DNA from: an uncultured Bacteroides sp.
GTDB taxonomy: Bacteria > Bacteroidota > Bacteroidia > Bacteroidales > Bacteroidaceae
Direction of reading: 5' to 3'
Assembly (NCBI GenBank): GCA_947646015.1
Contig: CANSEY010000005.1
Span: 121,707 to 185,706, forward strand
Length of the DNA: 64,000 nucleotides
Shown: positions 7,328 to 63,320 of the stretch, one piece after another
Layout: every line of letters begins with the position of its first letter
Numbering within the stretch: the stretch's first letter is position 1
The notes under the pieces: model-generated
Database searches by the model: none
The model's input: the letters and a program-made list of their open reading frames with translations, nothing else
Told to the model about the DNA's origin: nothing
Translations under genes and position numbers: made by a program

Positions 7328-7379
7328 AGAGCCCTAATTATAGTGACACTATCCGGTCAGGATAATGACATTATAATAT

Positions 7380-27391: not shown

Positions 27392-27500
27392 AGCTACAAA
27401 TGCGAATAATTAGCCAAATACACTTAAACAACCATTCAGCTACACTTGTGTATCCTCTTGATTACACAAGTGTAGTTTATTAGTTACTCAAGTCTAACAG
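27392..27500. repeat. Array A: four (perhaps five) 17-bp palindromes at 22-bp period
   Basis: The 12-bp cores TACACTTAAACA (27419-27430), TACACTTGTGTA (27441-27452), TACACAAGTGTA (27463-27474) and TACTCAAGTCTA (27485-27496) are spaced exactly 22 bp apart. A more degenerate copy starts at about 27395. The two middle units are perfect palindromes and also form a 13-bp inverted repeat with each other. The array lies between nadE and the phosphatase gene, downstream of both. Geometry is the same as at 36298-36380 and 62863-62945, but the core is different. Confidence 0.7.
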
Positions 27501-36297: not shown

Positions 36298-36380
36298 ATT
36301 CCTTTAAAAGAAACACCCCGTTGGTTTTAAAGGAACAGGTCGTTGGTTTTAAACCAAGAGCCCGTTCCTTTAAAAGAAAA
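36298..36380. repeat. Array B: four 17-bp palindrome-like units at exact 22-bp period
   Basis: 17-mers start at 36298, 36320, 36342 and 36364: ATTCCTTTAAAAGAAAC, GTTGGTTTTAAAGGAAC, GTTGGTTTTAAACCAAG and GTTCCTTTAAAAGAAAA. They are separated by 5-bp spacers (ACCCC, AGGTC, AGCCC). The centre is TTTAAA in every unit. Half-sites are drawn from TTCCTTT, TTGGTTT and TTCTTTT, combined differently in each unit. It lies 36 bp past the glpT-like stop. It is not a simple terminator: no U-run follows. Confidence 0.75.
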
Positions 36381-62562: not shown

Positions 62563-62854
62563 AGCTTTGTTCAATAAATTATTCAGCAAAGCTACTAATT
62601 TTATTCTATATCTATCTAGTAATACCGCTACATTCTCACTAAAACATACCTGTTGGCGGAATTAATTTAATTCAAACCCATGAAAACAGGATATCTCATT
62701 CTGCTTTCCGATATCCGCCAGATAATTGCATACCGATATACTTTCCCTTTCCCCAAAAACCCTTTAAGCACATTTCTTTTACCGTTCAATAGTATGCAAA
62801 CAACCCTATAATAACCTGCTTTACAACTATTATTGTCGCATTTTCAAAGGGAGT

Positions 62855-62954
62855 TCTTCATCGTTCCACCCAAGTGAACAAGCATGTCCACCTAGGTGCG
62901 CATACCTGTTTACAAGGGTGCAACGATCGGTTCACCCGGGTGGAACGATGAAGA
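62855..62954. repeat. Array C: four 17-bp palindromes at exact 22-bp period inside a 25-bp inverted repeat
   Basis: 17-mers start at 62863, 62885, 62907 and 62929: GTTCCACCCAAGTGAAC, TGTCCACCTAGGTGCGC, TGTTTACAAGGGTGCAA and GGTTCACCCGGGTGGAA. The 10-bp cores (CACCCAAGTG, CACCTAGGTG, TACAAGGGTG, CACCCGGGTG) begin exactly 22 bp apart. The outer arms 62855-62879 and 62930-62954 are 25-bp inverted repeats with two mismatches, so the whole array can fold on itself. Same geometry as arrays A and B, different core. Confidence 0.8.
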
Positions 62955-63089
62955 TGTCGGTAAAATAACACACGAATAAAGGCATCAAATGCCATAGAGA
63001 TAAGTAACATAATATATAAACAACAAGTAAACAGCAACCAAGATGCGAGATCCATTTGGCAACTACTTACGTAAAAGGCAAAGAAATGG

Positions 63090-63187
63090 AATGAGAGATA
63101 CCCCAAAAAGAGTGAGGGATAGACTGAAATGAAGCGATTCTAGGGAGAAAATAATGAGAGATACCTATTTGAAAAGTATCTCTCATT
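63090..63187. repeat. Three copies of an AATGAGAGATACC element
   Basis: AATGAGAGATACC occurs directly at 63090-63102 and 63153-63165, and GTATCTCTCATT (63176-63187) is the exact inverse of its first 12 bases. The second and third copies form a perfect 12-bp hairpin with an 11-nt loop. No U-run follows, so a terminator is not certain. Confidence 0.55.
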
Positions 63188-63320
63188 CTGTAATATACTA
63201 ATTATATGCAGATTACACAAAAACAGTGAGACCGTGAGACTAAAATATTTTTTTCTTTGCAGGAGTTAGCTGAAAGAAGGAACTCTTTTAAGTCTATCTA
63301 ATGCAAAAACATATAACTAT

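Follow-up and report, generated by a model that had tools for sequence, protein, structure and literature searches.

REPs of enterobacteria are not known to be locked to a 22-bp step or to four units or to lie in the leaders of genes for DNA-binding proteins, whereas the arrays described in this study have a 22-bp lock, four units and a place in the leader of a gene for a DNA-binding protein. Plasmid iterons and the autoregulation of Rep proteins involve sites spaced by about two helical turns and winged helix-turn-helix (wHTH) initiators that act at their own promoter. Iterons are direct repeats, however, while the present arrays consist of four palindromic units that vary among many chromosomal paralogues. 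The likeness to the BIME/REP elements of enterobacteria lies in intergenic, regularly spaced palindromes of alternating orientation, and the available part of one report describes BIME/REP elements as binding sites for several proteins (PMC2817692). The BrickBuilt MITE of Porphyromonas gingivalis is also an intergenic element of the Bacteroidales with a repeat of about two turns (23 nt) and predicted long stem-loops; it differs in its direct repeats of variable number (1 to 22.8), its leader and tail and its terminal inverted repeats, and no link to HU-HIG leaders was found in the available part of its description (PMC4596501). The capsule locus of P. gingivalis, a polysaccharide locus, has an HU protein (PG0121) and, at its 5′ end, a 77-bp inverted repeat, but in the available part of that report the inverted repeat is single, the HU is of the E. 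coli type and no four-unit 22-bp geometry appears (PMC3969353). Lastly, the gene behind the intact array is a member of the Pfam family HU-HIG (PF18291), although that entry describes a protein domain and the upstream array lies outside it. Bacteroides shows a strong expansion of HU-HIG (in the single-contig genome G021, 28 non-canonical PF18291 genes were examined), and no paper on what HU-HIG proteins bind was found in the open-licence PMC literature. No description of such arrays was found in its titles and abstracts either, in agreement with the sequence-only reading of this DNA, which knew of no named Bacteroides element of this form.

The window analyzed here is a stretch of 64,000 nucleotides from an uncultured Bacteroides sp., and array C occupies its positions 62855-62954, with four palindromic units, a 22-bp period, a closing 25-bp inverted repeat and known homologous copies. 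The units, to which like the arrays themselves no strand is assigned, are TTCCACCCAAGTGAAC (unit 1, 62864-62879), GTCCACCTAGGTGCGC (unit 2, 62886-62901), GTTTACAAGGGTGCAA (unit 3, 62908-62923) and GTTCACCCGGGTGGAA (unit 4, 62930-62945). Four cores at an exact 22-bp period had been proposed from the letters alone, and the same starts were recovered: CACCCAAGTG at 62867, CACCTAGGTG at 62889, TACAAGGGTG at 62911 and CACCCGGGTG at 62933. The palindromes span 62867-62942 and are enclosed by the inverted repeat that had been ascribed to the outer units (62855-62879 and 62930-62954; 25 nt, 92% complementarity). Some units are poor palindromes when taken singly, unit 3 being the worst; the regular part of the array is a set of eight similar half-sites in alternating orientation. 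The four-palindrome score accordingly compares each of the eight half-sites of the four units with the others. It reached 142 at period 22 and did not exceed 110 in any of 60 block-wise dinucleotide shuffles of the window, a comparison akin to one that the sequence-only reading had offered as a possible refutation, nor 117 at any other period from 14 to 35 in the real window. The second such comparison had the same outcome, as the 22-bp period is kept in both sister genomes that share the locus. In CRISPRs, unique 25-40-bp spacers separate direct repeats, and array C, with unit steps of 22 bp and spacers of about 5 bp, is not a CRISPR. It is also no ordinary intrinsic terminator, since a T run is absent directly past either end of the inverted repeat, read strand-wise; both judgements had been made earlier and hold. 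Array C likewise has four palindromic units at 22 bp in place of the variable number of 23-nt direct repeats that marks BrickBuilt, and an Rfam search of the window at the gathering score gave no matches.

Array C is one copy of a dispersed repeat, with relatives on contigs C32, C37, C44 and C19 of its own genome. The C37 copy is part of the 5′ leader of an HU-HIG gene (203 aa; PF18291, E 1.1e-33), divergent from a BT4734/VapE-type gene whose 720-aa product has the Pfam domains BT4734-like_N, VapE-like and DUF3874. Proteins of this domain type are primase-helicases. Window positions 62691-63045 are 76% identical to the C37 leader, and 63089-63258 share 79% identity with a flanking repeat of the C37 array. 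This homology shows that 62691-63258 is a decayed C37-like cassette, in which the -7 box is changed, the HU gene is a scrap and the BT4734/VapE gene is absent. From left to right, the cassette comprises the end of the left flanking repeat with a CTCATTCTG motif (62691-62703, minus strand); an altered -7 box (62839-62846, plus strand), which is CATTTTCA in place of the TATCTTTG of the C37 copy and stands, as is usual, about 33 bp ahead of the centre of unit 1; array C; the remnant of the HU-HIG 5′ leader from the array to the start codon (62955-63042, plus strand, within the 76% match); the gene scrap (63043-63087, plus strand), in which a start codon is left together with 27 bp (63058-63084) that resemble the middle of the C37 gene (E 0.002), the remainder missing; and the right flanking repeat (63089-63258, plus strand), with ATGAGAGATA motifs, a 12-bp hairpin and AGTGAGACCGTGAGAC. 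In both C37 and B. faecis, repeats related to the last feature bracket the array together with the HU gene. Array C was called a relic because the box at the usual place is altered. Its four units have a step within the 21-23 bp of the leader class (score 142, period 22), while it has neither the unaltered TAnnTTTG box of that class, 32-34 bp upstream of unit 1, nor an HU-HIG open reading frame downstream. That the copy is a gene-leader relic, and that the intact form precedes HU-HIG genes, could not have been seen from the window sequence alone.

The locus is common to two sister genomes at 96-98% identity, and across the three related genomes 5 of 100 columns vary in the array compared with 23 of 511 in its surroundings. 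The window copy is a fossil, without sign of extra constraint. In another genome (G030) the equivalent intergenic site measures about 32 bp instead of about 670 bp, with flanks too diverged for a target-site duplication, one mark of a MITE, to be read. With the window as comparison, the array of the C32 copy is inverted relative to its surroundings.

The four-palindrome architecture is general and stands before many HU-HIG genes in Bacteroides and some relatives. The window's own genome has 15 PF18291 matches, of which 13 are of the HU-HIG type and two are canonical HU. The five HU-HIG genes that have neither an acidic nor a Gly-rich tail all have a leader array (scores 136-200), and the eight tailed genes score 82-114, the 114 (L041) being marginal. 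A wider set joined these five genes to 120 relatives, taken roughly best-first and not as a random sample from the match lists of 60 genomes, of which 38 had at least one match. At least five listed loci in range were left out (G063:C1:2532441, G009:C131, G009:C117, G012:C31:122754 and G056:C79), and two of the 125 loci were omitted for having less than 200 bp upstream, which gave 123 scanned loci. Both the scan and the period scan used even-centred palindromes only and under-score odd-centred arrays. Upstream of the HU-HIG gene, 113 of the 123 loci scored above all 492 shuffles and 115 reached the 99% shuffle level, a level reached by one of 123 control stretches taken 900-1300 bp upstream. 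Among periods of 14-35 bp, 22 bp was best at 112 of the 123 loci, and some lineages have 21 or 23 bp instead. Follow-up analyses used the sets above a score limit: 111 arrays for the unit consensus, 116 for unit pairs, 104 for folds, 115 for mismatches and the promoter box and 110 for the split test. In the 111 best arrays, units 1 to 4 agree with the consensus of the remaining units in 11.3-11.8 of 16 bases, and hypothetical units before and after them match at about 4.2, that is, at chance.

The palindrome itself varies by lineage (CCCGGG, CTATAG, CAGCTG, CGTACG and others) around a common base pattern ACnn|nnGT, with A at position 4 from the centre in 81 of 104 arrays and C at position 3 in 91. 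Array identity falls with protein identity, from 0.85 above 90% to 0.38 below 30%. The association also holds in G021, where 30 of the 34 PF18291 matches were examined, the remaining four being without a locus. An array scoring at least 129 was present within 400 bp of all 13 tail-less HU-HIG genes and of one of 15 genes with a Gly-rich tail (L325, score 132), and the two canonical HU matches scored 87 and 111 (L341, gene start ambiguous). The near-identical paralogues L323 and L324 of this genome share one palindrome. In 73 of 256 related pairs the arrays match better when one is inverted; the margins are mostly small and an array-flip mechanism is therefore not claimed.

The distance to the promoter is also fixed. 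TAnnTTTG is the Bacteroides -7 consensus, and an exact match lies within 80 bp before the centre of unit 1 in 83 of 115 arrays, compared with 20 of 460 control windows. The start of the box is 33-34 bp upstream of that centre in 70 of these 83; 32 of the 115 arrays are without an exact box in the 80 bp. Among 19 loci from named records, at least four of which duplicate places of the first set and two of which have low array scores (108 and 114), the box stands at 33-34 bp in 18 and is masked in the 19th; Phocaeicola massiliensis and Parabacteroides distasonis were new to the set. The 13 tail-less genes of G021 have the box at 32-34 bp in ten cases and at 53 bp in one, with none in two. Transcription starts at a set distance from the -7 box, and the position of the box would place the start just before unit 1.

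The array is a candidate DNA operator of the HU-HIG gene behind it, bound by the product of that gene, and the window copy would be a decayed example; a probability of about 0.55 is given to this reading. Binding and self-regulation are what we infer from the observed position, geometry, promoter distance, HU-HIG association and lineage-specific sequences of the arrays. In intact cassettes the array lies just behind the promoter of the HU-HIG gene, and each palindrome is the predicted site of one dimer of the gene's own product. The HU domain would bend the DNA, and either the C-terminal helix-turn-helix region or the HU arms would read the half-sites. With a dimer on each of the four sites, at steps of 22 bp, one regular complex would form over about the first hundred transcribed bases and would block or tune transcription of the HU gene. 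Since the palindromes differ among lineages, little cross-talk would be expected between most paralogues; the palindrome shared by L323 and L324 counts against the operator reading. A fixed, computable signature before the tail-less members would also supply a likely candidate binding site for each paralogue at once.

The array may be a site on DNA or a structure in RNA, and a double-stranded DNA site fits better. Taken as RNA, array C has a very stable fold (z -7.6 and -7.8), and transcription beginning just before unit 1 would include it in the leader, where it could form long hairpins that govern translation or termination of the HU-HIG mRNA or could pair with the RNA of other arrays. This alternative is unlikely: it does not account for the exact 22-bp period, and the predicted folds of 104 arrays vary, with none common to all (22 form the full hairpin of u1:u4 and u2:u3, 22 most of that, 15 a u1:u3 pairing, and others differ). 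If pairing in a transcript mattered, G.U pairs would be tolerated and A.C mismatches would not be expected. In 115 arrays no excess of G.U over A.C was found at positions 1-11, as in slid controls, although the slid control is itself uneven at positions 1-3, and an alignment of stand-alone TTTAAA arrays, described below, gave no clear excess of G.U or A.C in the unit arms. Similarly, a need of each left arm for a right partner should make the true left/right split the best-matched division of the eight half-sites. It is matched no better than arbitrary splits in 110 HU leader arrays, where the mean rank of the true split was 0.45-0.48 and no left/right balance was found.

A double-stranded DNA site is favoured by the fixed period, the fixed promoter distance, the absent G.U excess and the absent half-site balance. 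Of the two suggestions of the sequence-only reading, that of a protein on one face of the DNA gains indirect support from the period (22 bp in 112/123), the box (33-34 bp in 70/83) and the lack of a G.U excess, while that of a stacked-hairpin RNA keeps the stable fold (z -7.6) in its favour and is not borne out by period, box distance or mismatches. Pairing could also take place in DNA, the arrays extruding cruciforms or folding as single strands into a shape that HU-type proteins recognize. The symmetric mismatch pattern fits such pairing on both strands, units 1:3, 1:4 and 2:4 are mutually complementary, and the mosaic of CC and GG half-sites in the 21 arrays of the TTTAAA family has a slight left/right balance (rank 0.63, p 0.006); but with that balance absent from the 110 HU leader arrays, and with neither a promoter lock nor a constant 22 bp needed for it, extrusion or folding of this kind is improbable.

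Some results point towards pairing. Complementarity between the outer half-sites, 1L and 4R, reaches about 18 bp, and a pairing permutation showed a weak preference for 1L-4R, 2L-3R, 3L-1R and 4L-2R (13.4 compared with a mean of 12.4 of 20). Among 116 arrays there are 13 exact 16-bp reverse-complement unit pairs, seven of 1:4 and six of 1:3, some of them mutual orthologues, and none between neighbouring units. In addition, matched changes in both partner units were seen by eye in L161/L173, L186/L189 and L187/L195. Such pairs and matched changes also speak for a leader RNA, and they count against a simple operator, since simple operators need neither. The DNA-site reading leaves the exact reverse-complement units unexplained.

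The gene divergent from the array bears on another explanation, in which the arrays are the iterons of an origin or transposition-like element, the HU-HIG protein its initiator and the BT4734/VapE protein its replication protein, with stand-alone arrays as miniature derivatives. A relative of the C37 BT4734/VapE protein was found in the fetched stretch at 52 of 125 loci, always divergent, and its Pfam domains agree with this explanation, as do the flanking inverted repeats, the dispersed solo copies and the G030 site without the insert. It is improbable all the same, as 73 of the 125 loci have no such gene in about 1.5 kb upstream, a Parabacteroides HU gene stands beside rpsL, the plasmid and phage matches look like pieces of chromosome, and the promoter lock indicates gene control. 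A plasmid or phage location of the arrays was set aside on inspection of six of the 12 plasmid matches, which were read as chromosome pieces. The cassette of B. finegoldii sits among glycan genes, and at L344 of Parabacteroides distasonis the HU-HIG gene, which has a four-unit array, immediately precedes rpsL-rpsG-fusA.

For the candidate operator, the half-sites could be read by either part of the HU-HIG protein, and no claim is made for the wHTH or for the HU part. The N-terminal part matches solved HU/IHF chains, and the C-terminal part is of the winged-helix type according to the Pfam family description (PF18291). The C-terminal part gave weak matches to HTH_24 in 8 of 56 proteins and to HTH_Crp_2 in 4 of 56, and a Pfam domain search with three isolated C-termini returned nothing significant. 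Array-bearing members of one type (L043, L152, L337) lack both the wHTH length and a Gly tail. Over 1574 pairs, uncorrected for phylogeny, site similarity had a partial rank correlation of 0.29 with wHTH identity when HU identity was controlled for, and the reverse was 0.16; over all 6555 pairs, likewise uncorrected, the values were 0.04 and 0.10. In a crude covariation test by mutual information, the columns that best follow the palindrome lie mostly in the N-terminal HU part and not in the C-terminal part, which counts against the operator reading, with clade structure as a confounder.

Arrays of the same form also stand alone. At a score of at least 115 the window has four period-22 matches: array C, a second four-palindrome array of the TTTAAA family at 36298-36379 (score 145, with matches in 20 of 157 genomes), a third array of the TACACTTGTGTA type between convergent genes at 27417-27498 (score 134, with matches in 2 of 157 genomes) and a match at 7340 (score 119). 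The last is a hairpin like that of an ordinary terminator and was set aside. In G021, a set of 20 pieces of 20 kb at even distances, searched at a score of at least 125, held four arrays at period 22, three at 23, one at 21 and one at 17, with none at any other period of 16-30. One of the four at period 22 is an HU leader (L255, the L314 gene). Solo arrays have the 3′ end of a gene within 130 bp in 20 of 28 cases and a 5′ end in 8 of 28, figures given without a random expectation.

In the 1.5-kb flanks of the 30 best loci of the TTTAAA family a BT4734/VapE gene was found at none and an HU-HIG-like frame at one (L277), and no TTTAAA-type leader was found among the 30 HU loci of G021. For the stand-alone TTTAAA arrays no HU-HIG partner was found, which counts against the operator reading. 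The arrays are better conserved on average than both 100-bp flanks in five of six orthologue groups (for example, 0.95 compared with 0.40 and 0.56), the exception being the window's own group, in which the array is no better conserved than the left flank. This exception, and the window copy of array C being as variable as its surroundings, are what would be expected of a functionless repeat spread by amplification and conserved by descent only. Such a repeat is very improbable in view of the five other groups and of a geometry held fixed in 112 of 123 arrays despite sequence variation.

Other solos resemble HU leaders. The L256 solo has the palindrome GACACCCGGGTGTC and the 23-bp period of the L337 HU leader in the same genome, with homology in the array only, and the L254 solo resembles the L316 leader. 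These cases are compatible with a tentative extension of the operator reading, which we hold possible but doubtful: a DNA address system of the Bacteroidales with fixed geometry and free sequence. Most of the dozen or so HU-HIG paralogues of a genome would each own a lineage palindrome, set four times at about 22 bp, and would build the same four-dimer complex at their own promoter and on matching solos, as in the L337 leader and the L256 solo with GACACCCGGGTGTC at 23 bp; the TTTAAA and similar arrays would be read by other factors. If stand-alone arrays are targets, they would form an overlooked layer of chromosome organization or gene control in dominant gut bacteria.

Several minor observations were made on individual arrays. 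The TTTAAA arrays (36298-36379 and L267-L296) are built of 17-mers that have an odd centre and a 22-bp step, and in which the half-sites GTTCC and GTTGG can replace each other; a recurrent order, CC,CC / GG,CC / GG,GG / CC,GG, has each combination once, and their spacers often alternate between C-rich and G-rich. L298 is a locus related to the third window array, with TACACTTGTGTA units. Two 23-bp GGGAA..TTCCC arrays without an identified partner gene (L259:18835 and L265:10419) lie in one genome. A 21-bp array (TTTCATTATAGCTAAT; L248:7315) lies between a divergent 730-aa gene and the Gly-tailed HU-HIG gene L326, about 0.6 kb upstream of the latter and beyond the 400 bp scanned. Lastly, at the intergenic site that matches window positions 62590-63320, two other species (L231 and L235) have unrelated 22-bp repeats, about GTTACCTACCG and GTTTCC..GGAAAC, with scores of 116 and 115, as if this site were a spot that collects arrays.
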